Virus record (IMG/VR): IMGVR_UViG_3300019487_000222
Coordinates: 1-22,234 of that record
From: a virus
Length of the DNA: 22,234 nt
Strand: one strand, 5' to 3'
How positions within the stretch are numbered: the stretch's first letter is position 1; every line of letters begins with the position of its first letter. Of this stretch, positions 343-15,561 are shown piece after piece. Both the position numbers and the translations under genes were made by a program. The notes beneath the pieces are model-generated. The model had not been told where the DNA came from. It saw only the letters and a list, made by a program, of their open reading frames with translations, and searched no databases.

Positions 343-350
343 AAGGAAGC

Positions 351-1235: not shown

Positions 1236-1236
1236 A

Positions 1237-1431: not shown

Positions 1432-1434
1432 GCC

Positions 1435-2454
1435 GTGGCCTTTGCACTAATTGACAGCCAGACCTACACGGCGAACGATACTTGGAACAAGCCTGCAGGC
1501 GCCGTCTTCGTCATCGTTGACATCGTCGGTGGTGGCGGCGGTGGTGGCGGCGGCGGCGGCGCTGGCGCTGGTTCGTTTCGACAGGGCGCGACTGGCGGCG
1601 GCGGTGGCGCTCGTCGCAAGATGCTGCTCAACGCCGCCGATTTGTCCTCTGCGGAGACAGTAACTGTCGCGGGGACAGCGGGCGGCGGCACCGGAGGCAC
1701 TAACGCCGTGGGTGGCGCGGGAACCGCAGGGAACAATTCCTCCTTCGGCCCGCACGTCTTTGCCTTCGGCGGTGGCGCGGGCGTATCGAATAACGGCCTT
1801 ACCAATTTCGCGGGAGGTTCGGGCGGCGGCGTCATGGAGGCCGGCGCCGTATCCGCGGGCGCTGCGAACATCGCAGGCGGGTCGCCTTCGACCAGAATAG
1901 CCAGAGGCGGTCAAAGCGGTGGTGGCGGCGGTACGACGCTTGGCGCGGCGGGATCCCCGGCGGAATGGGGTGGCGGCGGTGGCGGCGGCAACGTCAATGC
2001 CGCGACGGCCGGATTCGCCGGAGGCTGCTCACAGTGGGGCGGCGGTGGCGGCGGCGGTGCGGGCGGCGTCACGAGCGGCAACGCCGAATCGACCGGGGCC
2101 GCGGGCGGCGATAATGACGTCGGAGGGAGCGGCGGCGGCGGGACACTTGGTGCCGTCGACGGGGGCGCTGGTGGTGCCGGCGCAAACGGGAACAACATCC
2201 GCTCCGGCCAAGGCGGCGGCGGTGGCGGGTCGCAGGACAGCGGCACAGGCGGCGTTGGCGGCAACGGCGGCACGCCGGGTGGCGGCGGCGGCGGCGGTGC
2301 AGCAGGGACGAACACCGGCGGCGCTGGTGGTGTCGGCGCACGCGGCGAAATCCGCGTCTATACCTATGGCGACGATGGCAGCGGCGCCGGCCAGCCTATG
2401 CGGAAGCGTTTAGGGGGCATTCCGTTCATGGCACAGCAGCGAGGCGTTTGGTAG
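1435..2454 (+). CDS. Glycine-rich phage adhesin / tail fibre protein, copy 2
   Basis: This 339-residue paralogue of the protein at 351-1235 starts at GTG 1435 (MAFALIDSQTYTANDTW matches the other copy's MAFALIDAQVYTASNTW), with a purine-rich AAAGG upstream. The poly-glycine body has the same ordered anchors (AEWGGGG, GCSQWGG, GDNDVG, NIRSG, GARGEIRVYTYG). The loops between the anchors differ, which fits diversification of binding loops. It carries an extra C-terminal tail of about 26 residues, GDDGSGAGQPMRKRLGGIPF and onward, that the first copy lacks. The tail could anchor it to the virion. It probably acts in receptor binding; whether the two copies form one complex or are alternatives is unknown. 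Confidence 0.8.
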   Translation: MAFALIDSQTYTANDTWNKPAGAVFVIVDIVGGGGGGGGGGGAGAGSFRQGATGGGGGARRKMLLNAADLSSAETVTVAGTAGGGTGGTNAVGGAGTAGNNSSFGPHVFAFGGGAGVSNNGLTNFAGGSGGGVMEAGAVSAGAANIAGGSPSTRIARGGQSGGGGGTTLGAAGSPAEWGGGGGGGNVNAATAGFAGGCSQWGGGGGGGAGGVTSGNAESTGAAGGDNDVGGSGGGGTLGAVDGGAGGAGANGNNIRSGQGGGGGGSQDSGTGGVGGNGGTPGGGGGGGAAGTNTGGAGGVGARGEIRVYTYGDDGSGAGQPMRKRLGGIPFMAQQRGVW

Positions 2455-3909
2455 ATGGCATCGACGGACGCAAGGCCGGTTCCGCGGAAGAACGTCGCCT
2501 ATCGCGTGACGTTTCCGATCCTGGACGCCGATGGCGATCTCGTCACGGGCGCGGCCTCGCTCGATAGCGAGGTGTCGATCGATGGCGGCACCTTCGCGGA
2601 CTGCACGAATGAAGCGACGGAGATCGCGACCAACAGCGGCGTGTACTTCCTCGATCTCACATCGGGGGAAATGAACGGCGACACCGTCGCGGTTATCGTC
2701 AAGACCGGAACGGCTGGCGCGAAGACAACGGTCCTGGTGTTTTACCCGGAGGAAGTGGGCGACTACCGGGCCGACGTCGTGCAAATCAGCGGTGACACGA
2801 CAGCGGCCGACAACCTCGAGGCCGCCTATGATGGTGCCGGCTACGCTGGCGGCACGATCAAGCAGCAGGTCGACGTCGTCGCCATCTCCGGCGACACCAC
2901 GTCGGCCGATAACCTGGAGAGTTACACCGACGGCACGACGCCGATGCCGGTCAATGCCACTCAGATCAGCGGCGATTCGGCGGCTGCCGACAACCTGGAA
3001 ACCATGCTCGATGGCACGGGCGGGCAGACTTTGAGCCTCGGTGTCCTGTCGGTTACGGGCGGCGCGACCTTCGCCAACAGCGGCGGCAGCGGCCTGACGT
3101 GCAGCAGCTCAGGCAGCAACGGTCACGGCATCGTCGCTACCGGTAACGGCACCGGCGAAGGCATCAGCGCCACGGGCGGAGCGACGAATGGGCACGGGAT
3201 CCAGGGACTCGGACAAGGTTCCGGTTCCGGCATACGCGGCTCGGGCGGATCGTCATCCGGCGTCGGCATTTTCGGCGAGGCGACGGGCGGGAATACTCAC
3301 GGCATTTCGGCGACGGGTGCCGGTTCTGGCCACGGGCTCAACGTCACTGGCGGCACGTCGGGCGGGGATGGGTTCAGGATCAATGGCGGGCTGAGCGGCG
3401 GCAATGGCGTCAACGCCATCGGCAATACCGGCGGCGCTGCATTTCGTTTCCAGGCCGGCGCTACGGGCCACGGAATGCGGATTATCGGCGGGAGCACCTC
3501 CGGCGACGGTATCAATGTCTCGGTGACATCGGGCGATGAGATCAATGCGGATATCACCGGCAACTTGTCGGCGGCCACCGCTGACATCCAGTCGCGTCTG
3601 CCAGCGGCGCTCGTTTCAGGCCGGATCGATGCCTCGGTCGGCGCGATGGCAGCAAATACGCTGACGGCCAGCGCCCTGGCGGCCGATGCCGTGACCGAGA
3701 TCGTCGCCGGGCTGCTGGCCGGTGTTATCGAGGGCACGGTGACGCATCAGCAGGCGTTGCGCGGCATCCTGTCGGCGTGCGCCGGCAAAGCATCCGGGCT
3801 GGCGACGACGACGGCGGTCTATCGCGACACGACGGACGCGATCGACCGGATCACGGCCACGGTCGATGCCGACGGCAACCGCTCGGCCGTCACGCTGAAC
3901 CTGTCCTGA
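2455..3909 (+). CDS. Repeat-rich phage tail fibre protein
   Basis: The ATG directly abuts the TAG of the preceding adhesin, and the product is 484 residues. Residues 1-105 look like a beta-sandwich baseplate/fibre N-domain (RVTFPILDADGDLV, then GVYFLDLTSGEMNGDTV). Residues 108-182 carry three VVQISGDTTAADNLE-type repeats, a motif common in phage fibres. Residues 223-360 form a glycine-rich solenoid-like run of about 12 short units. The last 120 residues are alanine-rich and probably helical, ending in a small beta unit, TTTAVYRDTTDAIDRITATV. Those C-terminal elements are typical of fibre tips. It probably forms a trimeric fibre. No enzymatic motif is seen. Confidence 0.75.
   Translation: MASTDARPVPRKNVAYRVTFPILDADGDLVTGAASLDSEVSIDGGTFADCTNEATEIATNSGVYFLDLTSGEMNGDTVAVIVKTGTAGAKTTVLVFYPEEVGDYRADVVQISGDTTAADNLEAAYDGAGYAGGTIKQQVDVVAISGDTTSADNLESYTDGTTPMPVNATQISGDSAAADNLETMLDGTGGQTLSLGVLSVTGGATFANSGGSGLTCSSSGSNGHGIVATGNGTGEGISATGGATNGHGIQGLGQGSGSGIRGSGGSSSGVGIFGEATGGNTHGISATGAGSGHGLNVTGGTSGGDGFRINGGLSGGNGVNAIGNTGGAAFRFQAGATGHGMRIIGGSTSGDGINVSVTSGDEINADITGNLSAATADIQSRLPAALVSGRIDASVGAMAANTLTASALAADAVTEIVAGLLAGVIEGTVTHQQALRGILSACAGKASGLATTTAVYRDTTDAIDRITATVDADGNRSAVTLNLS
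2776..3000 (+). repeat. Three ISGDTTAADNLE-type coding repeats in the fibre gene
   Basis: Three copies begin near 2776, 2875 and 2956. They encode VVQISGDTTAADNLE, VVAISGDTTSADNLE and ATQISGDSAAADNLE. The offsets are 99 and 81 bases, so the linkers vary in length. The conservation is at protein level with many synonymous differences, so the repeats are old and selected rather than a recent DNA duplication. Confidence 0.8.
3121..3534 (+). repeat. About 12 tandem 10-13-residue solenoid repeats (GxG[hydrophobic]) in the fibre gene
   Basis: Residues 223-360 of the fibre divide into about twelve units, each opening with a GHGI, GEGI, GSGI, GVGI, GDGF, GNGV or GHGM type tetrad. The tetrad is followed by three residues, a glycine and a short linker. 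The hydrophobic residue after GxG is kept in nearly every unit (I, L, F, V or M). Regular units of this length with one inward-facing hydrophobic residue suggest a parallel beta-helix or a related solenoid. The structure is inferred. Confidence 0.65.
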
Positions 3910-4391
3910 TGTTCGGGAACCGGTACTGGGGGCCACGCCACTTCGGCGATCGGTACTGGGGGGACGGAAGCGGCGTCGCGCCACCGACACCCACGCCCGA
4001 GCCCGGGCTGCCTCCAGCTGGGGGGCACCGCCGCCGCGATGACCGCCGCCGGTTCCTGCTGCCGGACGGCACGATCGTCCTGGCGCGGACGCAAGATGAG
4101 GTCACGCGGCTGATCGGGCGCACGGTCGCCGAGGCGGTGCCGGAAGCGGTCGAGAAGACGGTCCTGCACCCGCGGTTGAACCGCAAGGGCAAGCCGGTAG
4201 GGCCGGCGCGGGAGCCCGTGCCGCAGATTTCGGCCGAGGTGCTCGATGCCATATCGCGGCTGCAGATGCAATCCGACCTGTTCGCGCTCGCCGATGCCAT
4301 CGCCGTGGCGCGGGCGAAGACGATCTCGGCGAGGCGGTCGCAGGACGAGGACGCATTGGCGGCAATTCTGATGGTGGTGGCGGCGACATGA
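3909..4391 (+). CDS. Hypothetical phage protein with an N-terminal RYWG aromatic repeat
   Basis: This 160-residue protein overlaps the fibre stop by one base (TGATG). The first 18 residues, MFGNRYWGPRHFGDRYWG, are a tandem aromatic/glycine motif seen in small phage proteins near fibre genes. A proline-rich linker follows (TPTPEPGLPP), then a basic segment with RRRDDRRR. A helical C-terminal half (about residues 55-160) contains LPDGTIVLARTQDEVTRLIG. The function is not recognised. Position just before the scaffold and capsid genes suggests a virion or assembly role. The C-terminal helix could mediate oligomerisation. Confidence 0.6.
   Translation: MFGNRYWGPRHFGDRYWGDGSGVAPPTPTPEPGLPPAGGHRRRDDRRRFLLPDGTIVLARTQDEVTRLIGRTVAEAVPEAVEKTVLHPRLNRKGKPVGPAREPVPQISAEVLDAISRLQMQSDLFALADAIAVARAKTISARRSQDEDALAAILMVVAAT
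3921..3962 (+). repeat. Pair of 12-bp direct repeats encoding RYWG
   Basis: CGGTACTGGGGG occurs at 3921-3932 and again, identical, at 3951-3962, exactly 30 bases apart. Both copies are in the same reading frame and encode the two RYWG motifs at the start of the protein at 3909. Identity at DNA level, including third positions, contrasts with the diverged repeats in the fibre gene just upstream. Confidence 0.85.
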
Positions 4392-4684
4392 GCGAATACG
4401 AGGGAAAGTTCCGCGACGAGCGGCTGCGCGGCGAACATGCGCGGCGGCTGCTAGAGGACGGGCTGCTGCAGGAAGCCTTTGCCAAGGTCGACGCGAGCAT
4501 CATCGGCAAGTGGCGCAACGAAGAGACGATCGGGCCGGAGAATCGCGAACGCCTGTGGATGATGTTGGGCCTCCTCGCACGTGTGAAGGCGCATATCGCA
4601 GAGGTCGCGAAGACCGGAGAACTGGCCGCGCAATCGCTGGCCGAAATTGAAGCGCGCAAGGAGAGCGGAAATGAACGACGATGA
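4388..4684 (+). CDS. Small helical phage protein upstream of the scaffold gene
   Basis: This 98-residue protein is coupled to the preceding gene by an ATGA overlap and overlaps the next gene by 14 bases. It is nearly all helical and charged (RDERLRGEHARRLLEDGLLQ, then RERLWMMLGLLARVKAHIAE). It resembles small uncharacterised phage proteins that lie just before scaffolding genes and share a LLEDxLLxEAFxxxDxxIxxxW / RExLWxxLxxLxxIxxHI pattern. An assembly or scaffold-associated role is inferred from position only. Confidence 0.65.
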   Translation: MSEYEGKFRDERLRGEHARRLLEDGLLQEAFAKVDASIIGKWRNEETIGPENRERLWMMLGLLARVKAHIAEVAKTGELAAQSLAEIEARKESGNERR

Positions 4685-5690
4685 AATCGGCCTGAGCGAC
4701 TCCGAAGTCGCCAGCAAGATCGAAGCGGCGCTATTCCCGGAGAAGAAGAAGGCCCCGGCAGTGACGCCCCCGGCCGCGCCTGAACAGGCAGCGCCGGCAA
4801 AGGAACCCACCGGGGACGACGGCGAAGAGCCGGAGCCCGAGGAAGACGAGACCGAAGATTCGGACGACGGCGAGAGCGAAACGGACGGCGACAACGCCCC
4901 GGACATCGAACCGCCATCGTCCATGCCCGAAGAGCTTCGGGCCGCATTCGCACAGCTCACACCGGAGATGAAGAAATTCCTCATCGACCGGGAGGCCGAC
5001 GTGTCGAAAGGCGGCGCCAAGCTGACGGGCAAGCTGGCCGAAGACCGCAAGGCGCTGGAAACGGCCCAGGCGGAACTGGCCAGCCACACTGCACAGCTCA
5101 ACGAGCTGGCAAAGCAGTATCGTCACCCTGACATCATCGCGTTCGAGACGAAATACGCCGACATCCTGTCCGGCAAGAAGGACTTGGCGGAACTGGCGGC
5201 CGATCCCATCGGCCTGCAGGACTACCAGGTCATGGAGCGGAAGGCGATCACCGCCCATCATCGCGAAGCGGCTAACCGGGAGAAGGCGCAAGCCGACTTC
5301 AAGGCCGACATCGCGAAGAAACAGGCCGCGACGCACGAGAAGCTGGCCGAGAAGATTCCGAACTGGTTCGGCGACACGGTCAAGGCCGAAAAGTCGTACA
5401 AGGCCATCGGCGAGTATCTCGTCAAGGAATATGGCATGGACCCGCAACGGGTCAGCCTGCTGCACGAATTCGGCCAGATCGACATCGTGCGGAAGGCCAT
5501 GCTGTATGACCGCGCCCAGAAGGCGAAGGCCGAGCGGGAGAAGGCCCCGGCCGTTCCTCCGCCGAAGGTCATGCGCCCCGGCACGAAGGTCTCGAATGCG
5601 AAGGATGAAAGGCGCGACGCACTGCGCAGCCGGCTCAAAAAGTCGGGCCGCATCGACGATGCCGCCCGGCTCATCGAAACAATGCTCTAG
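4671..5690 (+). CDS. Putative head scaffolding protein
   Basis: This 339-residue protein lies immediately upstream of the major capsid gene, the usual place for a scaffold. The start is ATG 4671 with AAGGAGAG about 5 bases upstream. Residues 45-85 are extremely acidic (EEPEPEEDETEDSDDGESET). A region rich in K, E, A and Q with coiled-coil character spans about residues 95-230. The C-terminal 50 residues are basic (RRDALRSRLKKSGRIDDAARLIE), matching the positively charged coat-binding helix-turn-helix tail known in podoviral scaffolds. The function is inferred from composition, layout and position, because scaffold sequences are poorly conserved. Confidence 0.75.
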   Translation: MNDDEIGLSDSEVASKIEAALFPEKKKAPAVTPPAAPEQAAPAKEPTGDDGEEPEPEEDETEDSDDGESETDGDNAPDIEPPSSMPEELRAAFAQLTPEMKKFLIDREADVSKGGAKLTGKLAEDRKALETAQAELASHTAQLNELAKQYRHPDIIAFETKYADILSGKKDLAELAADPIGLQDYQVMERKAITAHHREAANREKAQADFKADIAKKQAATHEKLAEKIPNWFGDTVKAEKSYKAIGEYLVKEYGMDPQRVSLLHEFGQIDIVRKAMLYDRAQKAKAEREKAPAVPPPKVMRPGTKVSNAKDERRDALRSRLKKSGRIDDAARLIETML

Positions 5691-5702
5691 AGGAGCACGA
5701 CA

Positions 5703-6674
5703 ATGGCTGTTCCAACCGGCACGACGCAGACCTTCCAACAGGTCGGCATCCGCGAGGATCTGGAGGACATCATCTACGACATCAGTCCGATGGATACCCC
5801 GTTTCTCTCCAAGGCTGACCGCATGAAGGCGACTCAGTCTAACCACGAATGGCAGACCGACGCGCTTTCGGCCGCGGCCAACAACCGCGTGATTGAAGGC
5901 GACGACGCGGCGATCGACACCATCGTCGCGACCGTCCGCCTCAACAACTACTGCCAGATTTCGGACAAGGCGATCTCGATCTCGGGCACCGCCAACACCG
6001 TCAACACGGCAGGCCGCAAGCGTGAGCTGTCCTACCAGATCACGAAGCGCGGCAAAGAACTGAAGCGCGACATGGAGTTCGCCCTGACGCAGAATCAGGC
6101 GAGCTCCGTCGGCGGCGCCGGCACCGCCCGTTCGCTGGCATCGCTCGAAAGCTGGATTTCGACCAACCGGACGTCGGTCGGGACCGGCACCTCGCAGACG
6201 ACGCCCGGGTTCTCCGGCGGCGTGGTGGCGGCTCCGACCGATTCCACCGTCACCGGGTCGATGTCGGAAACGACGCTCAAGGCAATGATCCGGGAAGCCT
6301 TCGTGCAGGGCGGCGATCCGTCGCTGATCCTGGTGGGTCCCGGATCAAAGCAGAAGATGAGCACCTTCACCGGCATCGCGACGCAATATCGCGAGAACAG
6401 CGGCGTGAAGCAGGCGACGATCCTCGGGGCGGCGGCGGTGTACGTCTCCGACTTCGGCGAACATCGCATCATGCCGGATCGCTTCTCGCGCGATCGCACG
6501 GTCCTCGGCCTCGACATGGAATACTGGGGGGTCGCCTACCTACGGCCGTTCCAGCAGTTCGAGCTGGCGAAGACCGGCGACTCCGAAAAGCGGCAGATGC
6601 TGGTGGAATACACCCTGGTCGCGAAGAACCAGGCCAGCAGCTTCAAGATCGCCGACGTCAACTCGGCGCTGTAA
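5703..6674 (+). CDS. Major capsid protein, SU10 major head protein type
   Basis: This 323-residue protein starts at ATG 5703 after a good ribosome site (AGAGGAG, about 7 bases upstream). The N-terminus, FQQVGIREDLEDIIYDISPM with DTPFLSKADR after it, then WQTDALSAAANNRVIEGDDA, YCQISDKAISISGTANTV and a C-terminal MEYWGVAYLRPFQQFELAKT, are features of the SU10/DUF5309 family of major head proteins with an HK97-like fold. The length fits. About 400 copies would build an icosahedral head (family knowledge). It is followed by a terminator-like hairpin, which fits a highly expressed gene whose transcript is partly ended or processed here. The identification is firm at family level. Confidence 0.9.
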   Translation: MAVPTGTTQTFQQVGIREDLEDIIYDISPMDTPFLSKADRMKATQSNHEWQTDALSAAANNRVIEGDDAAIDTIVATVRLNNYCQISDKAISISGTANTVNTAGRKRELSYQITKRGKELKRDMEFALTQNQASSVGGAGTARSLASLESWISTNRTSVGTGTSQTTPGFSGGVVAAPTDSTVTGSMSETTLKAMIREAFVQGGDPSLILVGPGSKQKMSTFTGIATQYRENSGVKQATILGAAAVYVSDFGEHRIMPDRFSRDRTVLGLDMEYWGVAYLRPFQQFELAKTGDSEKRQMLVEYTLVAKNQASSFKIADVNSAL

Positions 6675-6685
6675 TTCCTCTCTGG

Positions 6686-6709
6686 CGGGCGGCTGGCAAC
6701 GGCCGCCCG
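6686..6709 (+). terminator. GC-rich hairpin after the capsid gene, probable intrinsic terminator
   Basis: An 8-bp stem (CGGGCGGC at 6686-6693 with GCCGCCCG at 6702-6709) closes over a short loop and is followed by GTCTTTC. It lies 11 bases past the capsid stop and 7 bases before the next ATG. The T-tract is weak, so termination is probably partial. It could also stabilise the 3' end of the capsid mRNA. Confidence 0.5.
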
Positions 6710-6716
6710 GTCTTTC

Positions 6717-7055
6717 ATGGAAATACTCGAACACGATCCGGTCACGGGGATCACGCTCTATCACGATTACGATGCCGTGACCGACACGACGACGCTGGTC
6801 ACCCGCCAGGATTGCGAGCCGATCCTGGAGAACAACAAGATCCTGCAGAACCTCCAGGATCGCGGCTATACGGCCGGCAGGGAATGGCGCCGCGTCGCCG
6901 AAATTCCGCTTGCGCTGCTCGAAAAGTGGCGCGTCGAGGAAGGCATCGACATATTCAACGAAAATCACTGGCCCGCGATCGTGCGGAAGCTCAATGACAC
7001 CGATTATCGCTTCCTGCGCACGGCGCCGGGGCACTTGAGCGGCAAGCTTGGATAA
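6717..7055 (+). CDS. Small conserved phage protein downstream of the capsid gene
   Basis: This is a 112-residue protein. It contains HDPVTGITLYHDYDAVTDTT and then QDCEPILENNKILQNLQDRG. This resembles a family of small proteins found beside podoviral and SU10-like capsid genes, with a DPxTGI...YD...D...I...QD.EPIL..NK.LQN pattern. Its biochemical role is unknown to me. Candidates are a minor head protein or a neck protein. The ATG lies 7 bases after the terminator-like stem with no clear ribosome site, so translation may be low or depend on the state of the hairpin. The last 8 bases overlap the TTG start of the next gene. Confidence 0.65.
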   Translation: MEILEHDPVTGITLYHDYDAVTDTTTLVTRQDCEPILENNKILQNLQDRGYTAGREWRRVAEIPLALLEKWRVEEGIDIFNENHWPAIVRKLNDTDYRFLRTAPGHLSGKLG

Positions 7056-8436
7056 GCGTCTCGCGGCGGCGCAGGCCTGGCTCAACCGCGAAGAGCCGGA
7101 TGAAGCCCTGGCGCTCTGCCATCAGGTGATGAACGATTGTCCAGATGACCTCGGGGCGCTGCACATCGCCGGCCACGCCTACATCAAGGCCGAGCGGTGG
7201 GGCATGGCGTACCAGATGTATTGGCGGGCGACGCAACTGCATCCCGCGAGTTCCGAGTCCTGGAACAACATGGGACGCTGCCTGCAGGAACTGGGGCGCG
7301 TCGACGAGGCCGAGGCCGTCTTCCGGCGCTGCATCGATATGTCGCCAGATGACTACGCCGCCTGCAACAACATGGTGCAGACGTGCACCGTAGCGGGGCG
7401 GCATGGCGAGGCGGTCTATTGGTACAAAGAGGCGCTGAAGCGGGCGAAGGACGAAAACGACCGCCAGGAAGCGCGGATGAACGTCGGCCTGTCCTTGCTG
7501 GCCACGCGGCAATGGGAGGAAGGCTGGACGTGCTACGACGCCGGGCTGCAGCGTAATAAATGCCGGCCGGATATCTCGTTCAAGGGCGAGCCCCGCTGGA
7601 ACGGCGAGCCGCACCAGGGCCTCGTGGTCTATGCAGAGCAGGGATTAGGCGAGGAGATCCTGTTCGGTTCGATGATCCCTGATCTTCTCGCCGACAAGCA
7701 GCGCAACGCGCAGGTGGTGATCGAATGCGACCCGAAGATGTCAGGTTTATTCAGTCGCGCTCTGAAGCTGCCCGTGTATGGGACGCGGTTCTCGAAGGAG
7801 CGTTCCTGGACGCAGCGCCACCGAATCACATCGCACGTAGCGATGGGCAGCCTGGGCCGGTTCTACCGGACGGAGCCGAAGATGTTTCCTGCGCGAGCCT
7901 GTCTGCGTGCCGAGCCGCAACGTTCCCTGATGTATCGGACGCTCCTGGAGCAGCTGGGGCCGGGCCGGACGATCGGGCTGGCGTGGACGGGCGGAAGGAA
8001 GAACACGGGCGCGCCGCAGCGTTCGATTGGCTTGGCTCAATTCGCACCGCTTGCGGGCGATGACGTACACTTGATTTCACTCCAGTACTGCGACCCGGCG
8101 AAGGACATCGCCGACTGCGGGTTCAGGGTGCATCACTTCCCGTTCGCGACGGAGACGCAGGACTATGACGACACTGCCGCGCTCGTCAGCAACCTGGATG
8201 CTGTGGTGTGCGTCACGACCGCTGTGGCTCACCTGTGCGGCGCTCTTGGCGTTCGCTGCCATGTTCTCGTCCCCGAGCATCCGCAATGGCATTGGAACGC
8301 GGACGGACCGAATGCATGGTGGAGCAGCGTCGAGCACTATCGACAGGGAAAGGATGAGCCCTGGTCCGCCGTCATCGCGCGAGTAGAGGAGGTATTGCGT
8401 GGCGATCGAGCCCGTAGTCTGGAAGCTGCTGAGTGA
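7048..8436 (+). CDS. TPR-repeat glycosyltransferase (GT-B, heptosyltransferase/GT9-like C-domain)
   Basis: This is a 462-residue protein. The N-terminal 150 residues hold about four TPR helical pairs (for example SSESWNNMGRCLQELGRVDE followed by AEAVFRRCIDMSPDD). The C-terminal half carries the signatures of TPR-linked GT-B transferases: VVYAEQGLGEEILFGSMIPD near residue 191, IGLAWTGGRK with PQRSIGL near 308, and NLDAVVCVTTAVAHLCGALG near 381. It probably transfers a sugar from a nucleotide-sugar to a protein or glycan acceptor in the cytoplasm, with the TPRs recruiting the acceptor. The start is TTG 7048, overlapping the upstream stop by 8 bases; the next in-frame ATG (7129) would cut into the first TPR. 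It is the first gene of the modification cassette. Substrate and acceptor are unknown. Confidence 0.8.
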   Translation: MDKRLAAAQAWLNREEPDEALALCHQVMNDCPDDLGALHIAGHAYIKAERWGMAYQMYWRATQLHPASSESWNNMGRCLQELGRVDEAEAVFRRCIDMSPDDYAACNNMVQTCTVAGRHGEAVYWYKEALKRAKDENDRQEARMNVGLSLLATRQWEEGWTCYDAGLQRNKCRPDISFKGEPRWNGEPHQGLVVYAEQGLGEEILFGSMIPDLLADKQRNAQVVIECDPKMSGLFSRALKLPVYGTRFSKERSWTQRHRITSHVAMGSLGRFYRTEPKMFPARACLRAEPQRSLMYRTLLEQLGPGRTIGLAWTGGRKNTGAPQRSIGLAQFAPLAGDDVHLISLQYCDPAKDIADCGFRVHHFPFATETQDYDDTAALVSNLDAVVCVTTAVAHLCGALGVRCHVLVPEHPQWHWNADGPNAWWSSVEHYRQGKDEPWSAVIARVEEVLRGDRARSLEAAE

Positions 8437-9076
8437 GCTGAGGCCGCCGCAGCTGCTGTGCCTCGGCTATCCGGACCTGCTGCTGCCGCACGGCGAGCCC
8501 TATCCGATCGCACAGGACGCGGCGGCGATCGCCGGATGGCACGGCTGGAACGGGATGGTCTACGAGACGACCGCCGCGCTGGCGACCATCGGTTGCGAGC
8601 CGGCATTCATCGACATCCATCCGTCGCGCGGAGTTGAGCGGGTCGTGGATCTGAACCAGCCGTTGCCGGGGGATTTGGCGGGACGTTTCGATGCCGTGCT
8701 TGATCCCGGGACGCTGGAACACTGTTTCAACATCGGACAGGCGTTTCGGACTTGCATTGCGGCGCTGAAAGAGACAGGCACGGTGATCCACACCAACCCC
8801 TTGCAGCAGCTCAATCACGGCTTCTGGAACATCTCGCCGACGGCCTATGCCGACCTGTACGAACACTGCGGTTTCACGATCGAATTGTCGATCCTCGCCG
8901 GGCCGCTGGCGGATCGGCAGATATCCCCGAGCAAACCGCATGCCCGGTTTGGCGTCCACGGCGAGGCGGTCAATCTCTGCGTAGCCAAGAGGGCCAAAGA
9001 CCACGGTCCGGTGGGCTGGCCGACCCAGCATAAGTATCGCGCGAACCCGAACCTTAGGGCTGCGAATGTCTATTGA
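8399..9076 (+). CDS. Class I SAM-dependent methyltransferase-like protein
   Basis: This is a 225-residue protein. The start is GTG 8399, fixed by AGGAGG at 8387-8392 with a 6-base spacer, inside the end of the upstream gene (38-base overlap). LLCLGYPDLLLP occupies the place of SAM motif I, replacing the usual DxGxGxG. VLDPGTLEHCFNIGQAF near residue 100 matches motif IV of the methyltransferase-11/23 group, followed by VIHTNPLQQLNHGFWNISPT. It probably methylates a sugar or glycan made by its neighbours. The degenerate glycine motif leaves room for a diverged or altered activity. It overlaps the FkbM gene by 11 bases. Confidence 0.7.
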   Translation: MAIEPVVWKLLSELRPPQLLCLGYPDLLLPHGEPYPIAQDAAAIAGWHGWNGMVYETTAALATIGCEPAFIDIHPSRGVERVVDLNQPLPGDLAGRFDAVLDPGTLEHCFNIGQAFRTCIAALKETGTVIHTNPLQQLNHGFWNISPTAYADLYEHCGFTIELSILAGPLADRQISPSKPHARFGVHGEAVNLCVAKRAKDHGPVGWPTQHKYRANPNLRAANVY

Positions 9077-9671
9077 GAAGCGCGGCGAATGGTGGTGGCC
9101 GTCGCGGGACACGGAATATCTGAAGGTCGCGGCCTGCCTGCAATCGCTGCACCTGGCGGTGAAGCGGGTCCAGGCACGCAACGTCGCGGTACAGGCCGGA
9201 GGGTGCGTCGGCGTATGGCCCCGCCAGCTCTCCGCATGGTTCCAGGCGGTCTACACCTTCGAACCCGACACTGAGAACTTCGAGTGCTTGGTGAAAAACC
9301 TCTCCGGCCTGACCAACGTGGCGAAGATGCAGGCGTGTCTCGGCGCGGGGCAGGCTCCGGTCGGCATGGCGCGGTCCGATGCCAATGTCGGCGCCGGCTA
9401 CATCTGGGGTGACGGCGTGACTCCAGTCATCAAGATCGATGACCTTCATCTCGCCGCCTGCAACTTGATCTGCCTCGACGTCGAGGGTTACGAACTGCCG
9501 GCGATGATGGGGGCAAAGAACACACTGGCGATGTTCCGGCCGGTGGTGTTGTGCGAGGACAAGGGCCTGCATAGGCGATACGGTTTCGGCAATCTGACGG
9601 AGTGGTTGGCGGAGCAGGGATACAAGGAGGTCGGGCGCGAGGCCCGCGACGTGGTGTTCGCGTGGAGCTAG
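9066..9671 (+). CDS. FkbM-family methyltransferase
   Basis: This 201-residue protein has the FkbM layout: AGGCVGVWPRQL at residues 44-55 (motif I), YTFEPDTENFECLVKNL at 63-79, VIKIDDL at 121-127, and ICLDVEGYELPAMMGAKNT at 135-153, with RPVVLCEDKG after that. FkbM enzymes usually O-methylate sugars or small molecules using SAM. Motif I normally reads DxGANxG; here the first position is Gln (QAGG), which should be checked for effect on SAM binding. Start ATG 9066 overlaps the upstream stop and the stop overlaps the next GTG, so the cassette is translationally coupled. A glycan target is inferred from the surrounding glycosyltransferases. Confidence 0.82.
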   Translation: MSIEKRGEWWWPSRDTEYLKVAACLQSLHLAVKRVQARNVAVQAGGCVGVWPRQLSAWFQAVYTFEPDTENFECLVKNLSGLTNVAKMQACLGAGQAPVGMARSDANVGAGYIWGDGVTPVIKIDDLHLAACNLICLDVEGYELPAMMGAKNTLAMFRPVVLCEDKGLHRRYGFGNLTEWLAEQGYKEVGREARDVVFAWS

Positions 9672-10447
9672 CCTTCGTCTTCGTGGACCTCGGCAAGCCG
9701 TTCTATCGCGGCGCCGTGCGGCTGATGGTCGACAGCGCGCGGCTGGCGATGCCGGATGCCAGGATCGTGCAGCTCTCCGACAAGAGCACGCGGGCATACC
9801 CGGGTGTCGATGGGATCGCGACCGCCGACATAGACTGCACGACGGAAACCATCTGCAAACTCAAGGGCCAGATGTTTGCCGACCGCGCCCTGACGGCGGA
9901 CGACAATACGGTTCTCTGCGATATCGATCTGATCTGGAATCGCTCGCCAGAGGAGATATTCGAGCGTCACTTCGACGTGGCGGTCATGTGGCGGCGCGAG
10001 ACGCTGCTGCAGCCGTACAATTCCGGGGTCATCTTCACGAAACCGACGCCCGCAGCGCGGCTGTTCTGGTCCGCCTATGCGCGTTGCATGCTCGAACTGC
10101 CGCCTTCGCTGGCGATGTGGTTCGGGGACCAGGTGGCGCTGGCGTCGCTCATCGGGCCTTCGGCGCCGGGCAACGTGCTGACGCGCAGCGGTGCCAAGGT
10201 GCTGATCCTCGACATGGACGAGATCGCGCGGGCGCCGAAGACGGAGCCGAGGGAAACGACGGACAGCTACTGCGCCCACTTCAAGGGCCTCAAACGACGA
10301 GCATGGATGGCGCCATATGCTGAATATCTTCATCGGCTACGACCCCCGGCAGGCGATAGCGTACAACGTCCTGCAGTTCTCGATTCTGCGGCGCACGTCG
10401 CGGCCGGTGGCGATCTGCCCGCTGGTGCTGGGAACGCTGCCGATTGA
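9662..10447 (+). CDS. GT-A fold glycosyltransferase-like protein with an overrun C-terminus
   Basis: This 261-residue protein starts at GTG 9662, just inside the FkbM gene. Residues 65-90 give the GT-A pattern CKLKGQMF...NTVLCDIDLIW with a DxD metal motif at D87/D89. Then come PYNSGVIFTKPTPAARLFW and the late YCAHFKGLKRRAWM, where the His is typical of the last conserved motif of these transferases. The recognisable domain ends near residue 217. The remaining 43 residues (10314-10447) are read in a different frame over the next gene and look like non-selected sequence (RPPAGDSVQRPAVLDSAAHV). A lost stop or a 3' frameshift is likely. Donor and acceptor are unknown. Confidence 0.7.
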   Translation: MELAFVFVDLGKPFYRGAVRLMVDSARLAMPDARIVQLSDKSTRAYPGVDGIATADIDCTTETICKLKGQMFADRALTADDNTVLCDIDLIWNRSPEEIFERHFDVAVMWRRETLLQPYNSGVIFTKPTPAARLFWSAYARCMLELPPSLAMWFGDQVALASLIGPSAPGNVLTRSGAKVLILDMDEIARAPKTEPRETTDSYCAHFKGLKRRAWMAPYAEYLHRLRPPAGDSVQRPAVLDSAAHVAAGGDLPAGAGNAAD

Positions 10448-10982
10448 CCGCCAAGGACTGACGCCGTTCACCTATTCGCGGTTTCTGGTGTCTTGGCTGT
10501 GCGACTACCAAGGGTGGGCGCTGTTCCTCGATCTCGACATTCTCTGCGTGGCGGACATCGCGGAGATATTCGAGCACGGCTTCGGCGACGAGCAGAGACA
10601 CGCCGTCTGGACCGTCGACACAGACCCCGCATATGAGCGCGCGGCGGTGATGCTGTTCGCCTGCGGTCATCCCGACAACAAGGTGCTGACCCCGGACGCG
10701 GTGAACGAGCGTGGCGACCTGCACCTGATCGGCTGGACGAAGAACCGGGGACGGCTGAGCCCCCGCTGGAACCATCTCGTCGGCTACGACGCGCCATGCA
10801 GCGACCCGGCGCTGATCCACTACACCATGGGCGTGCCGGCGCACAAAGAGACGCAGGATTGCGAACACGCAGACCTCTGGCGGCAGGAGCAGCGCGCGAT
10901 GAATTCGACGCAGGACTGGCAGACGCTCATGGGCAAGAGCGCCCATGTCGTTGACGGCAAGCCTCGCTACAAGGTGGCCTGA
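10317..10982 (+). CDS. GT8-like glycosyltransferase
   Basis: This is a 221-residue protein. The start MLNIFIGYDPRQAIAYNVLQ, the FTYSRFLVSWLCDYQGWALF segment and LDLDILCVADI (DxD at D72/D74) are typical of GT-A transferases of the GT8 type. LIHYTMGVP near residue 167 supplies the expected late metal- or substrate-binding His. The size is close to a minimal GT-A domain. It is the last gene of the modification cassette and shares a base with the adaptor gene start (TGATG). It probably adds a hexose or related sugar to an acceptor made by the upstream enzymes. The first 131 bases overlap the previous gene in another frame. Confidence 0.75.
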   Translation: MLNIFIGYDPRQAIAYNVLQFSILRRTSRPVAICPLVLGTLPIDRQGLTPFTYSRFLVSWLCDYQGWALFLDLDILCVADIAEIFEHGFGDEQRHAVWTVDTDPAYERAAVMLFACGHPDNKVLTPDAVNERGDLHLIGWTKNRGRLSPRWNHLVGYDAPCSDPALIHYTMGVPAHKETQDCEHADLWRQEQRAMNSTQDWQTLMGKSAHVVDGKPRYKVA

Positions 10983-11653
10983 TGAGCCTCGCAACCTACG
11001 TCGACCTGCTCACTGGCATCGCCGCCTGGTATGGCACCCCGGGCGATTTGGTCATCACGGACAACGACGACGATTTCGTGACGCTGGCCGAATCCCGCAT
11101 CTACAATGGATACGGCGAGCCTGGCGACCCGTTCTATTCGCCGGCCGTGCGCACGCGGCTCATGGAAGCGAGCACGGACTTGACGATCTCCGCGCAGACG
11201 GCGGCGATGCCGAGCGATTTCCTGGCGCCGCGGCGGCTGTATCTGAACAGCAACCCGATCGTCGTGATGGATTTCCTGGCCTCGACCGACTTCTGGTCCC
11301 GGTTCATGGCGAGCGAGAGCGGCCAGCCGGTGGCGTACACGATCGAAGGCTCCGACTTCGTGTTCGGCCCGTCTCCGGCCACGACCTACACCGGCAAACT
11401 GCTCTATTGGAAGAAATTCGCGGCGCTGTCCACCGCGGTCAATGGCCTCTTCACCGCGGCCCCGGATCTCTGGCTCTGGGGGTCGTGTTTACTGGCGGCG
11501 GTGTTCAAGGACGATCCCGAAGCCATGTCGCGGTTCCATGCGCTGTACATGGGCACCGCCAAGGGCCTGAACGCAAGCGACCGGGCGGCCAAGTACGGCG
11601 GCGCCCCGCTGATGATGCGCAGCGACACCGGCAACCCGCCGGCTATTGCCTAG
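10982..11653 (+). CDS. Head-tail adaptor protein, SU10/P22 gp4-like
   Basis: This 223-residue protein has the order of motifs seen in phage adaptor proteins. An N-terminal helix MSLATYVDLLTGIAAWYG leads to FVTLAESRIYNGYGEPGDPF and MPSDFLAPRRLYLN. A beta region follows, with GQPVAYTIEGSDFVFGPSPA and LLYWKKF, then a C-terminal helical part APDLWLWGSCLLAAVFKDDP. These proteins form a ring beneath the portal and connect the head to the tail. An SU10-type adaptor agrees with the SU10-type capsid protein at 5703. It is normally close to portal and capsid genes; here five sugar-modifying genes intervene. Confidence 0.78.
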   Translation: MSLATYVDLLTGIAAWYGTPGDLVITDNDDDFVTLAESRIYNGYGEPGDPFYSPAVRTRLMEASTDLTISAQTAAMPSDFLAPRRLYLNSNPIVVMDFLASTDFWSRFMASESGQPVAYTIEGSDFVFGPSPATTYTGKLLYWKKFAALSTAVNGLFTAAPDLWLWGSCLLAAVFKDDPEAMSRFHALYMGTAKGLNASDRAAKYGGAPLMMRSDTGNPPAIA

Positions 11654-11658
11654 ACACG

Positions 11659-11663
11659 AGGAG
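11659..11663 (+). promoter_or_regulatory. Ribosome binding site supporting an ATT start
   Basis: AGGAG lies 7 bases before ATT at 11671. This is ideal spacing and there is no ATG, GTG or TTG at a suitable distance in this frame. It sits just after the adaptor gene stop and is the main evidence for starting the next gene at 11671. Confidence 0.6.
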
Positions 11664-11670
11664 ATCGACC

Positions 11671-12657
11671 ATTTCACAGATCCAGACCTCGAATTGGTCG
11701 CAGACGGCGGCCAGCAACAACGCCGCGCCTCCCAACGGAATGCCGGAAGGCATGGCGCCGAGCGGGGTCAACGATTCCGTCCGCGAGATGATGTCCGCCC
11801 TCAAGATCAATTGGGCGAACGTGCACGGCGTGGACAGCTCCGGCGCGCTGCTTTCGACGGCAGGGACCTCGACCGCCTACACGCTGACGTTCTCGACGGC
11901 CCCGGCCTCGCTCTATACGAGCTTCATCTTCGGCTGCAAGATTCACACGGACTGCGGCGCGGGCCCGACCATCAACGTGAACGGCCTCGGGGCGGTCAAC
12001 ATCCAGAAGATGACGACCGCCGGCTATGCGAACCTCGCTGCCGGCGACCTCAAGCAAAATCAGCACCCGCTGCTCAAGTACGACGGCACGTTGGCGAAGG
12101 TCATCCTGCTGGCACCGACGGCGACCGCAGAGTCGGGCTTTGCCGACCCCATGACCACGCGGGGCGACATCATCGTCCGCAACTCCTCGAATGTCTCGGC
12201 GCGGCTGCCGGCCGGTGCCAGCGGCACGGCGCTGCAATCGGACGGTACCGACCTGGCCTATGTAGCGGCGGCGACCTCGTCCGAATTCCGAACTGGGACG
12301 GACACGACGAAGCGGCTGGTAACATCCGGTGTCTGGGGCGCGCTGGCCGAGGTAACGCTCACCGACGCCGCAACGGTCGCGGTCGACATGGCGACCGGCT
12401 TCGATTTCACCGTGACGCTTGGCGGCAACCGCACACTCGGCAACCCGACGAACGTCAAGGTCGGGCAGCGTGGACGCATCCGAGTGGTGCAGGATGGGAC
12501 AGGGTCGCGGACGCTGGCATTCGGGGGCAACTACGAATTCGAGGATGCAACCGCAATCACGCTGTCATCGGGGGCGGCGGACGAAGATATCCTCTACTAC
12601 GATTGCATCTCGGCGACCCGCATTCTGATCACGGGATTCGTGGGGAATATCGGCTAA
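11671..12657 (+). CDS. Phage tail fibre-like protein, probable ATT start
   Basis: This is a 328-residue product if it is initiated at ATT 11671. The N-terminus, ISQIQTSNWSQTAASNNAAP followed by PNGMPEGMAPSGVND and VREMMSALKINW, is a known fibre N-terminal module (SQIQTSxxSxTAASN...PEGMAPSxVND.xREMM). Such proteins normally begin right at this point, so the first in-frame ATG (11740) would delete half the module. The middle is beta-rich. Residues 162-200 have the TTRGDIIVRN...ARLPAG...LQSDG fibre linker, and the C-terminus is a beta domain (FTVTLGGNRTLGNPTNVKVG, a frequent fibre segment). It probably attaches to the tail. The stop overlaps the next ATG. Confidence 0.75.
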   Translation: MSQIQTSNWSQTAASNNAAPPNGMPEGMAPSGVNDSVREMMSALKINWANVHGVDSSGALLSTAGTSTAYTLTFSTAPASLYTSFIFGCKIHTDCGAGPTINVNGLGAVNIQKMTTAGYANLAAGDLKQNQHPLLKYDGTLAKVILLAPTATAESGFADPMTTRGDIIVRNSSNVSARLPAGASGTALQSDGTDLAYVAAATSSEFRTGTDTTKRLVTSGVWGALAEVTLTDAATVAVDMATGFDFTVTLGGNRTLGNPTNVKVGQRGRIRVVQDGTGSRTLAFGGNYEFEDATAITLSSGAADEDILYYDCISATRILITGFVGNIG

Positions 12658-13331
12658 TGCTTCCGGGCATGGCTACACCAATTGCGCGGCGTCCGCGCGT
12701 CCGCATCGTGGCCGTGGCGCAGGCGACGACATCTGGCACGGCCCACACGTTTTCCGGCGTCAACTTCGGGGCGCCGTTCCCGGGACGCGTGCTCATCGCC
12801 TGCGTGGCCCTGCGCGACACGGCAGGTTCGGCGATTGACCAGATTGCCTGCACGATCGGGGGCGTGACCGCCGCGGGGGACGATGATGGGGAATTCTTGA
12901 GTGGCGGTCCGGCGATCGGTGCCGGGATCTGGGCGGCGGCTGTCCCTACTGGCCAGTCCGGCGACGTGTTCGTGGATTGGACCGGGCAGACCGCCCCGGA
13001 AGCGACTCTCATCCTGCTGTCTGTCGATGGCTTCAGCGCCACGGCGCACGATCAGCAATCGCCCGTCGGCGGCGGGTCGGGCGGCACGTCCAGAACGGAT
13101 ACGGTCGATATTCCGGCAGGCGGTCTGCTCGTGGTGGCCGCTTCGCACACGAACAACAACAACACGACGTTGAGTGGTGTCACAGAGCGGAGTGAGCAGA
13201 CCGTCGGCGTCGGGCAGTTCGCGGTCGGCTGGGATTTCCATCTGGCTCAGGAAACCGGGCGCACCATTACATCGTCATGGACGACCACCGCGGCGCGGGG
13301 CTTGCGGCTGGCGTCATATCCGAGAGCCTGA
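12657..13331 (+). CDS. Hypothetical beta-rich phage virion protein
   Basis: This 224-residue protein is coupled to the fibre gene (TAATG overlap). After a basic start (ARRPRVRIVAVAQAT) it alternates short strands: HTFSGVNFGAPFPGRVLIAC, VFVDWTGQTAPEATLILLSV, IPAGGLLVVAASHTN, RTITSSWTTTAARGLRLASY. It looks like an all-beta sandwich of the kind found in phage decoration or fibre-tip proteins. I do not recognise a specific family. It is the last plus-strand gene before the reversed pair, and its stop is 24 bases from the stop of the minus-strand protease gene. Confidence 0.6.
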   Translation: MLPGMATPIARRPRVRIVAVAQATTSGTAHTFSGVNFGAPFPGRVLIACVALRDTAGSAIDQIACTIGGVTAAGDDDGEFLSGGPAIGAGIWAAAVPTGQSGDVFVDWTGQTAPEATLILLSVDGFSATAHDQQSPVGGGSGGTSRTDTVDIPAGGLLVVAASHTNNNNTTLSGVTERSEQTVGVGQFAVGWDFHLAQETGRTITSSWTTTAARGLRLASYPRA

Positions 13332-13354
13332 GGGCAGTCTGCCCCATAGCGGGG

Positions 13355-13909
13355 TTAGCGGTCGTCGATGACCTGCCAAGTGGTGCCGCCAAACAGCCGC
13401 GAGACGAATACCCAGCCGTTGCTGCGAGCTTGACGCCACGGGGCGATGTAGTCAGTCAGATTGTCCATGACGAAATCGCCCTGATCGGTGACCAGGACGA
13501 GGACCATATGGCCATCGGGATCGGTCGGGTGCGCGATGAGCGCCGGCAGCATGGCCGCGGCCGGGATGCCAGCCTGGATCAGCCGGTCGCGCTTCGTCAG
13601 GACGTAGTCCTCGCAGTCGCCGCCGTCCGGCCCGAGCAGCGTCCAGACATCCTCGTCGTCGCGGGGGCCGTCGTCGCGGTAGGGCGCCCGGTTGACCTCG
13701 ATGTTGATGCGCTTCGTCAGCGCCTTGAATTCGTCGGTGAGCGGCACGATCAGCGGCCGGGTGTTGTAGTGCAACGGATGGTCGGCCAGGAAGGCATTCC
13801 ATTCTGCAAATTCCTGGGCTGTGGCGCTAGCCGGCATGTAGTTCCGCTCGCCGCCGGCCAGGGCCGGCGAGGAGGCCAACAGCAGGGCCGCTAATGCAAT
13901 CTGGCGCAT
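13355..13909 (-). CDS. Secreted transglutaminase-like cysteine protease (BTLCP/LapG-type, peptidase C93)
   Basis: This is a 184-residue protein on the opposite strand to its neighbours. Residues 1-18 form a signal peptide (MRQIALAALLLASSPALA, with Ala-Leu-Ala before the cut). The catalytic triad of bacterial transglutaminase-like cysteine proteases is present: Cys99 in GGDCEDYVLTKRDRLIQAG, His134 in DGHMVLVLV and Asp149 in FVMDNL. The relative LapG cleaves cell-surface adhesins in the periplasm; this target is not established here. It follows the 32-residue lipoprotein gene by 12 bases and probably shares its promoter. An exported enzyme that could act on the host envelope, transcribed against the virion genes, looks like a moron. 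It may alter host adhesion or exclude other phages (inference). Confidence 0.85.
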   Translation of the reverse strand: MRQIALAALLLASSPALAGGERNYMPASATAQEFAEWNAFLADHPLHYNTRPLIVPLTDEFKALTKRINIEVNRAPYRDDGPRDDEDVWTLLGPDGGDCEDYVLTKRDRLIQAGIPAAAMLPALIAHPTDPDGHMVLVLVTDQGDFVMDNLTDYIAPWRQARSNGWVFVSRLFGGTTWQVIDDR

Positions 13910-13921
13910 GGTCCCGAGCGA

Positions 13922-14020
13922 CTAAGCCTGGCAGCCCGCGAGCAGGAGGACGGCGATCACGAATAGAAGAGTCGATACGCCGGAAGCCAATAAGGCATCA
14001 AAGAAAGCTGAAGGTTTCAT
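13922..14020 (-). CDS. Tiny 32-residue lipoprotein
   Basis: The sequence reads MKPSAFFDALLASGVSTLLF then VIAVLLLAGCQA. A strong hydrophobic stretch ends in the lipobox L-A-G-C at residues 27-30, followed by only Gln and Ala. If signal peptidase II cuts before Cys30, the mature product is a lipid-modified tripeptide. AGGAG at 14029-14033 lies 8 bases before the ATG, and a promoter-like sequence is just upstream, which argues that it is real. It ends 12 bases before the protease start, so the two probably form one unit. Alternatives are an uncleaved membrane peptide or a leader whose translation couples to the protease. Confidence 0.6.
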   Translation of the reverse strand: MKPSAFFDALLASGVSTLLFVIAVLLLAGCQA

Positions 14021-14044
14021 GGCCGAGGCTCCTATCCTCTTAAG

Positions 14045-14073
14045 AAAATACGCCCATTAACCATCGCCCGCAA
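14045..14073 (-). promoter_or_regulatory. Sigma-70-like promoter for the minus-strand lipoprotein/protease pair
   Basis: Read on the minus strand, TTGCGG (14073-14068) and TATTTT (14050-14045) are separated by exactly 17 bases. A start near 14038 would give a leader of about 17 bases containing the AGGAG ribosome site of the lipoprotein gene. The local AT content is higher than in the surroundings. It is predicted by eye. Confidence 0.4.
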
Positions 14074-14085
14074 GGTGAACAGAAC

Positions 14086-15561
14086 ATGCCTTTGATTCCC
14101 TTCGCGCCATACCTGCCGGACATCCCCCCGAGGGACAACCCTGGCGCTTTGGAGGCGAAGAATGTCATCCCGAAAATCGCCTCTTACGGGCCGTTCGCCG
14201 ATTTCGCTGCCAACACCGATGCGCTGACGGCTCGGCCCCAGGGCGCGTTCGCCTGCCGGGACCTCAGCGGCGCCGCGCACAGCTTCGCCGGGGATGCGAC
14301 CAAGCTCTACAAGCTGGCATCTTCCGGCCTGACCTGGGACGACGTGTCCCGCACCTCCGGGGGCGCCTACACGACCGATACGGCCAACGGCTGGAGTTTC
14401 ACGCAGTTCGGCAATGTCGTGATCGCCGTCAACGGCACCGACGCGCCGCAGGCGTATACGCTGGGCTCCTCGACCGACTTTGCGGCGCTGGCGGGCTCGC
14501 CGCCGGTGGCGCGGTTCGCCGCCACGGTGCGGGAGTTCGTCATGCTCGGACGCGTTGCCAGCCTGTTCAACGAGGTGCGCTGGTGCAAGTTCAACGACCC
14601 GACGACCTGGACGGTTGGCGTCGACCAAGCCGACCTGCAGGACATCGCCGACGGCGGCCAGGTCATGGGCATCACGGGTGGCACCGGGGCGACCGTGTTC
14701 CAGCGCAACGGGATCACCCGCGGCACGTACATCGGCGGCGACTTCATCTTTCAGTTCGATCCGATCTCTAAGTCCATCGGCGTTGCCGCGGAAAACTCCA
14801 TCGCCGCGTTTCAGAATGACAGCTTTTTCCGCGGTGATGACGGCTTCTGGCGCTTGGCCGGCGGCATCCAGCTGCAGCCGATCGGCGACAGCAAGGTCAA
14901 CAAGACGCTGCTGGACGACCTCGACCCGTCCTATCCACATCGGGAGGTCGGGGCCATCGATCCGCAGCGCAGCCTGTATTTCTACATCTACCCCGGCTCC
15001 GGCAATTCCGGGGGCACGCCGAACAGGGGTTTCGTCTATCACTGGCCGTCCGACCGCTTCGCCCGTTTCGAGCTCGAATTGGAGTACGTCTATCAGGCGC
15101 TCACGGCCTCGGGCTACACGCTGGACAGCCTTGATCCGGCCATGCCCTCGATCGACGGGCCGCCGCAGATCAGCCTGGACTCGCCCATCTGGGCCGGCTC
15201 CGGCAAGATCGTGCTTGGCGGCTTCAATACCAGCCGTCGGCAGGGCTTTTTCTCCGGTGCGCCGCTGGAAGCCACGGTCGATACTGGCGAATTCGCGCTC
15301 AATGATGGCTACAAGACGCGGGTACGCTCTATCCGGCCGATCAGCGATGGCGGCGCCCTCTCCATCGTGCCGATCGTGCGCAACAAGCCGACGGACTCGC
15401 CAACGGTCGGGACGGCAGTGGCGGCCAATACCTACGGTGCCTGTCCGCTGAACGCAGTAGGGCGGTATCACCGGGCGCGCGTCCAGGTGGCGGCCGGGGG
15501 CACCTGGAACCACTTGCATGGCGTCGATGATGTCGAATCCTCACGGGCCGGCAAACGCTGA
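14086..15561 (+). CDS. Phage tail hub / packaged-DNA stabilisation protein (P22 gp10-like)
   Basis: This is a 491-residue protein with ATG 14086 after AAGGTG. The start PLIPFAPYLPDIPPRDNPGA with VIPKIASYGPF, followed by repeated beta blades, is typical of phage tail nozzle/stabilisation proteins. The blades include FTQFGNVVIAVNGTDAPQAY, FAATVREFVMLGRV, VRWCKFNDPTTWTVG with DLQDIADGGQVMGI, FQRNGITRGTYIGGDFIFQF and FFRGDDGFWRLAGG. In P22-like phages gp10 forms a hexameric hub under the adaptor and keeps DNA in the head. It is separated from the adaptor gene here by two virion genes and the reversed pair. The family call rests on motifs and layout. Confidence 0.7.
   Translation: MPLIPFAPYLPDIPPRDNPGALEAKNVIPKIASYGPFADFAANTDALTARPQGAFACRDLSGAAHSFAGDATKLYKLASSGLTWDDVSRTSGGAYTTDTANGWSFTQFGNVVIAVNGTDAPQAYTLGSSTDFAALAGSPPVARFAATVREFVMLGRVASLFNEVRWCKFNDPTTWTVGVDQADLQDIADGGQVMGITGGTGATVFQRNGITRGTYIGGDFIFQFDPISKSIGVAAENSIAAFQNDSFFRGDDGFWRLAGGIQLQPIGDSKVNKTLLDDLDPSYPHREVGAIDPQRSLYFYIYPGSGNSGGTPNRGFVYHWPSDRFARFELELEYVYQALTASGYTLDSLDPAMPSIDGPPQISLDSPIWAGSGKIVLGGFNTSRRQGFFSGAPLEATVDTGEFALNDGYKTRVRSIRPISDGGALSIVPIVRNKPTDSPTVGTAVAANTYGACPLNAVGRYHRARVQVAAGGTWNHLHGVDDVESSRAGKR

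Follow-up and report, generated by a model that had tools for sequence, protein, structure and literature searches.

The question raised by this locus is why two small reversed ORFs should stand in the middle of a virion gene module. The stretch of DNA analysed, called the window here, is 22,234 bases long and is an entire IMG/VR virus record, probably a fragment. It carries a podovirus-like virion module with an SU10-type major capsid protein, adaptor, nozzle, ejection protein and lysis genes, the last at about 20.6-22.2 kb, and the relatives of this phage show an alphaproteobacterial affinity. The two reversed ORFs encode a lipobox peptide and a bacterial transglutaminase-like cysteine proteinase, BTLCP (Table 1). 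A first-pass annotation had called them the only minus-strand genes in 22 kb, and this was borne out: the BTLCP ORF has the top coding score among the minus-strand ORFs of the window and the second-best is antisense to the adaptor gene. Two other features of the window were observed on the plus strand. Between the capsid and adaptor genes, at 7048-10982, there are genes for a TPR protein, a methyltransferase-like protein, an FkbM methyltransferase, a nucleotide-sugar transferase and a GT8-like protein, a cassette that is possibly surface or virion glycosylation cargo, and at 288-1235 and 1435-2454 there are tandem paralogous Gly-rich tail-fibre-like genes.

Table 1. Features of the adaptor-nozzle region of the window
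Feature	Position	Strand	Basis or remark
Head-tail adaptor (SU10_adaptor PF24175)	10982..11653	+	Profile match; left edge of insertion slot
Slot cargo gene 1	11653..12657	+	No Pfam match
Slot cargo gene 2	12660..13331	+	No Pfam match above cut-off
Exported BTLCP (PF06035), 184 aa	13355..13909	-	Pfam, triad, coding score, model
Lipobox peptide ORF, 32 codons	13922..14020	-	MKP...LLAGC-QA; sequence pattern
Shine-Dalgarno region of lipopeptide ORF	14021..14034	-	TAGGAG, 8 nt before ATG
Promoter-like TTGCGG-17-TATTTT (first-pass annotation)	14045..14073	-	7/12, chance-level
Tail nozzle / P22 gp10-type stabilization protein (phrog_3287)	14086..15561	+	Right edge of slot; relatives annotated stabilization or nozzle

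When the BTLCP ORF was compared with Pfam it matched PF06035 (Peptidase_C93) with an E value of 9.7e-25 and 87.7 bits, the cut-off being 27, and the catalytic residues C99, H134 and D149 were found to be intact and are invariant across 18-19 phage BTLCPs. Its N-terminus, MRQIALAALLLASSPALA followed by GG, reads as a classical Sec signal of about residues 1-18, a call that here and for the other BTLCPs is a heuristic one made by eye and from hydropathy and not by a signal-peptide predictor. The earlier claim of a signal-peptide BTLCP with a Cys99/His134/Asp149 triad is upheld by these data, and that of an envelope-directed product holds at the level of sequence. The coding score of the ORF, 0.336 per codon, and its GC3 of 0.85 are like those of the phage's own genes, and the plus-strand ORF antisense to it scores 0.032. 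The AlphaFold2 model has a mean pLDDT of 82, which exceeds 90 over most of residues 51-170, and holds the Cys-His-Asp triad within a transglutaminase-like fold; among solved structures it is closest to LapG (Z 15.1, rmsd 2.8 over 121 residues), and the BFVD structure matches include phage BTLCPs. The putative Ca2+ loop, GDCEDY, is kept. From this we concluded that the window probably carries an exported, active BTLCP. The GC content of the region, 63-66%, and its codon usage match those of the neighbouring genes, so the foreign base composition that is taken as a mark of morons was not found; such deviation is common among morons and is not required. No close relatives of the window were found for a dN/dS analysis, the nearest nozzle relative being 55% identical.

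The ORF that precedes the BTLCP gene encodes MKPSAFFDALLASGVSTLLFVIAVLLLAGCQA, with the lipobox LAGC, and it shares its frame with the BTLCP gene, with one TAG and 12 nt lying between the two. Six ORFs with the lipobox pattern were found in 1.66 Mb of DNA, and only this one has a Shine-Dalgarno sequence; 0.017 such ORFs are expected per window length and none with a Shine-Dalgarno sequence arose in 60 Markov shuffles, the search criteria having been fixed after this ORF had been seen. Thus, of the tiny lipoprotein with a good ribosome site that the first-pass annotation described, the lipobox and the ribosome site stood up, but the mature lipopeptide would be CQA only, i.e., three residues, and no homologue of it was found. 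The codon usage of the ORF is uninformative, and a similar ORF was not found upstream of any of eight other signal-bearing phage BTLCPs. A role as an outer-membrane spanin was considered and rejected because the three-residue mature part is too short and the lysis module is elsewhere.

As to the transcription of the pair, the proposed promoter-like sequence with 17-base spacing was not substantiated, as it matches at 7 of 12 positions and equally good sites occur at 2.3 per kb per strand, which is chance level. Nothing in the region passed a stricter scan for promoters of this type, and no terminator for the pair passed the terminator scan. The region upstream of the BTLCP gene is among the most AT-rich in the window. 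The stops of slot cargo gene 2 and of the BTLCP gene converge and are 23 nt apart, with no terminator found between them. A search for structured RNA gave no Rfam match. That the segment is invertible was also considered and rejected, as no inverted repeats border 13332-14085. A 14-nt perfect inverted repeat does occur at 13949-13962 and 14417-14430, but each of its arms encodes VIAV in its own gene and strand, so it probably reflects shared codon usage.

The slot between the adaptor and nozzle genes was surveyed in the window together with 80 IMG/VR relatives and four GenBank phages, and both genes were present in 75 records. In 55 of these records the two genes abut (-12 to +37 nt), whereas in the other 20, which include the window, 213-3668 nt lie between them, the distance in the window being 2433 nt. 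The inserts in the 19 other records are unrelated and comprise tail-fibre-like, Gly-rich and uncharacterised genes, nearly all of them forward; in the window two forward genes come first and then the reversed pair. Besides the window, a BTLCP was found in only one of 47 nozzle-bearing records (L037), where it lies directly after the adaptor gene in the same slot at 4315-4821, forward on the plus strand, without a signal peptide and with the loop GDCNTF as against GDCEDY in the window. A gene similar to the tandem Gly-rich tail-fibre-like genes of the window is also seen in the L037 slot. Nozzle-bearing regions were found in 5 of 398 Pseudomonadota genomes and, for one class taken as Alphaproteobacteria, in 8 of 385. 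These 8 regions and an integrase on the L037 contig show that the relatives include temperate members. None of 11 prophage nozzle-bearing regions, from about 780 genomes sampled, holds a BTLCP. Since the slot is empty in most records and BTLCP is absent from nearly all of them, the pair is dispensable, gained cargo, and the conclusion that it is accessory cargo, a moron in the broad sense, is well supported. The first-pass annotation had named it a candidate moron and had proposed to look for its presence or absence among related phages; both the sporadic presence of BTLCP and the position of the pair between genes that are mostly adjacent agree with that suggestion, broadly taken.

Two observations were made in passing during this survey. 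Beside a prophage nozzle gene (L149, G564:C2:597000-610000, positions 1-7134) there are forward genes of 475-519 aa, the 519-aa one with a GH108 muramidase domain, and interspersed among them are six or more reversed paralogues, each about 200 aa long and hydrophobic at the N-terminus; this looks like a muramidase toxin and envelope immunity array built on the prophage. In Phage C72C1 (L004:6683-7884) the annotation splits the major head protein in two, and the gap of about 470 nt between the parts contains three small reversed ORFs; an intron, an insertion or an error are all possible.

Reversed BTLCP genes are not confined to the window. BTLCP was found in 31 phage records, 30 of them of Caulobacter phages and one of a Brevundimonas phage, and in the five that were examined (phiCbK, Magneto, Colossus, BL57 and Bajun) the BTLCP gene, accompanied by at most a few small genes, opposes long uniform blocks and adjoins the portal gene or, in BL57, the corresponding unnamed ORF. 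The N-terminus is lipobox-like in the BTLCPs of Colossus (LLSC) and Bajun (LFAC), and the phiCbK BTLCP has a TM segment. The phiCbK-like BTLCPs form a separate tree branch (100/100), so it is probable that their reversed orientation and their targeting to the envelope evolved independently. Other phage BTLCP genes are forward or at operon ends; reversal of BTLCP in phages is recurrent, not universal. Well-supported tree branches force at least four label changes, which means that phages have acquired BTLCPs repeatedly. Since phiCbK is a virulent phage (PMC3556154), its reversed envelope BTLCP shows that lysogeny is not required. That such a unit is typical of lysogenic conversion is unproven, as no integrase was found within the 22 kb window, a fragment, and virulent phiCbK-like phages carry BTLCP; lytic-cycle roles are equally open. 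Two details of these phages were also seen. An uncharacterised 67-aa gene follows the reversed BTLCP gene in the same orientation in both phiCbK (L172:12010-12964) and CcrMagneto (L170:3095-4058), and in BL57 (L174:4001-4750) the annotation has two short ORFs in the BTLCP region, though a protein match spans it, so that a frameshift or a mis-annotation is possible.

What the window BTLCP would do is suggested by HvyA of Caulobacter, which is its best precedent as judged by analogy. HvyA is a periplasmic BTLCP whose catalytic activity, which needs its triad, prevents capsulation, and Caulobacter cells that lack HvyA make a capsule and resist phage phiCr30. Of five heterologous BTLCPs tested in its place, those of S. 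meliloti and S. fredii substitute in part and the other three fail (PMC4241560). The window BTLCP has the same combination of a Sec signal and an intact C-H-D triad, and by this analogy it most likely remodels the host surface. The fuller reading, that the pair is acquired accessory cargo in the slot and that the exported BTLCP acts on the host surface in the manner of HvyA, we put at about an even chance. On this reading the pair would have been acquired horizontally and have entered, along with other genes, a slot between adaptor and nozzle that tolerates insertions, and it would be transcribed independently, from a start in the AT-rich stretch at about 13956-14085, its antisense orientation shielding it from late transcription. 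After export by Sec, BTLCP would work with the help of Ca2+, as the retained GDCEDY loop suggests, as a protease or amidase of the Cys-His-Asp type, either periplasmic or at the outer membrane. Its target would be a host envelope protein, and cleavage or modification of this protein would reduce the capsule or some other surface layer, which in turn may alter phage adsorption, progeny spread or superinfection. The lipopeptide, if made, would be a tripeptide with a lipid anchor and may serve mainly in translational coupling, as its ORF stops 12 nt from the BTLCP ATG. The glycosyltransferase-like, FkbM and other methyltransferase genes of the window phage are consistent with surface modification. 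Against the HvyA-like reading are the chance-level promoter, the failure of three of the five tested BTLCPs to take over from HvyA, the long branch of the window BTLCP (1.9), which leaves its exact tree position unsure, and the signal-less BTLCP of the slot neighbour L037. A broader proposal is that unrelated alphaproteobacterial phages have repeatedly placed a reversed envelope BTLCP among their virion genes, thereby seizing an HvyA-type switch, so that the capsule or some other layer is removed or blocked in the infected cell or the lysogen, with the window lipopeptide, translated just ahead, helping to target or couple BTLCP; this we regard as tentative and on balance doubtful.

A different reading is that BTLCP is a LapG-like protease whose target is a large adhesin of the host; by cutting the N-terminal retention module of this adhesin it would release the host from surfaces and help lysogens or progeny to disperse. 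LapG frees adhesins and is restrained by LapD (PMC4359373), both LapA and CdrA are cleaved by the LapG family (PMC4359373, PMC4694147), and it is with LapG that the model of the window BTLCP has its best match among solved folds, the Ca2+ loop being kept as well. The first-pass annotation had suggested that a LapG-like activity could cut host surface adhesins; an identity with LapG had to be rejected. In two trees the window BTLCP groups with alphaproteobacterial and phage BTLCPs (98/91 and 97/91) and lies outside the beta/gammaproteobacterial LapG-type set, its H-D spacing is 15, as in alphaproteobacterial and phage BTLCPs, and not 17 as in that set, and it scores 24.3 bits against the NCBIfam LapG equivalog NF045674, for which the cut-off is 320. 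Moreover, no adhesin or LapD gene was recognised in the 22 kb fragment. We therefore consider an adhesin protease rather improbable. An envelope factor of the lytic cycle, which would loosen the capsule or outer layers and thereby let progeny out or keep a secondary phage from entering, with no lysogeny involved, also appears unlikely; the virulent phiCbK-like phages with their reversed, anchored BTLCPs adjoining the portal gene speak for it, but the pair opposes the late operon without a terminator between them, so that late expression would meet antisense transcription, and the lysis genes are elsewhere.

It is very unlikely that BTLCP is a virion-associated or assembly enzyme, for instance one that processes tail fibres. 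Such a role would fit L037, in which the gene for a signal-less BTLCP reads forward in this slot ahead of tail-fibre-like genes, and it would fit further phage BTLCPs that lack a signal and are encoded close to virion genes, but the window BTLCP has a Sec signal and is on the wrong strand for a virion operon, and the relatives make virions without BTLCP. That the pair is a passive hitch-hiker, i.e., a host gene that was acquired, is rarely or never expressed and is kept by chance, the lipopeptide ORF being a coincidence, is also very unlikely. The lack of a strong promoter, of a lipopeptide homologue and of close relatives for selection analysis would be in keeping with it, yet the triad and signal are intact, the codon usage is phage-like and phages have acquired BTLCPs repeatedly.

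Phage BTLCPs as such are already known from GenBank annotations and from river single-virus genomes (PMC11283719), where BTLCP is given as the commonest auxiliary gene; what is new in detail is that the reversed placement is convergent and that a lipopeptide ORF accompanies the BTLCP gene. In the literature searched, no discussion was found of the role of BTLCP in Caulobacter and Brevundimonas phages. The matter is of interest as a Caulobacter BTLCP decides capsule and hence phage infection, and if phages carry their own BTLCPs as separately oriented envelope genes they may be able to operate the capsule switch on their own. This idea is directly testable with the phiCbK copies, which belong to a model phage of a model host.

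Compared with known systems, the window BTLCP resembles HvyA in its Sec export signal, its alphaproteobacterial BTLCP type, its C-H-D triad and its H-D spacing of 15 (H226 and D241 in HvyA), this spacing being the only sequence comparison made, with HvyA outside the trees; HvyA also has predicted Ca2+-binding residues, comparable to the GDCEDY loop. Unlike the window gene, HvyA is 272 aa long, is chromosomal in a capsule export locus and has a function that was shown genetically. LapG of Pseudomonas fluorescens and Legionella pneumophila (4fgo, 4u65) is alike in its transglutaminase-like fold (Z 12.6-15.1), triad and Ca2+ loop, and differs in subfamily by tree, spacing and equivalog cut-off, as well as in its LapD/LapA context, which was not recognised in the window. 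Rhizobium phages L338C, RHph_I4 and P11VFA have a BTLCP of the alphaproteobacterial type that is about 33% identical to that of the window and, at least in L338C, has a signal peptide; in L338C and RHph_I4 the gene is forward in a run of small, mostly uncharacterised genes. The BTLCP auxiliary metabolic genes of river-water viruses are likewise phage-borne and horizontally spread among viral clusters (PMC11283719). A similar arrangement is seen for phiCbK gp041, CcrMagneto gp039, CcrColossus gp037 and the Bajun BTLCP, which are also envelope-directed and encoded by an antisense unit of one or two genes adjoining virion genes, with GDCEDY conserved and in alphaproteobacterial phages. They differ from the window in that these are siphophages of 200-300 kb, the BTLCP gene is beside the portal gene, the protein is anchored by a TM segment or its own lipobox, the third triad position, as judged by eye, is not Asp as D149 is in the window, and the small companion gene is downstream of the BTLCP gene, whereas in the window it is upstream.
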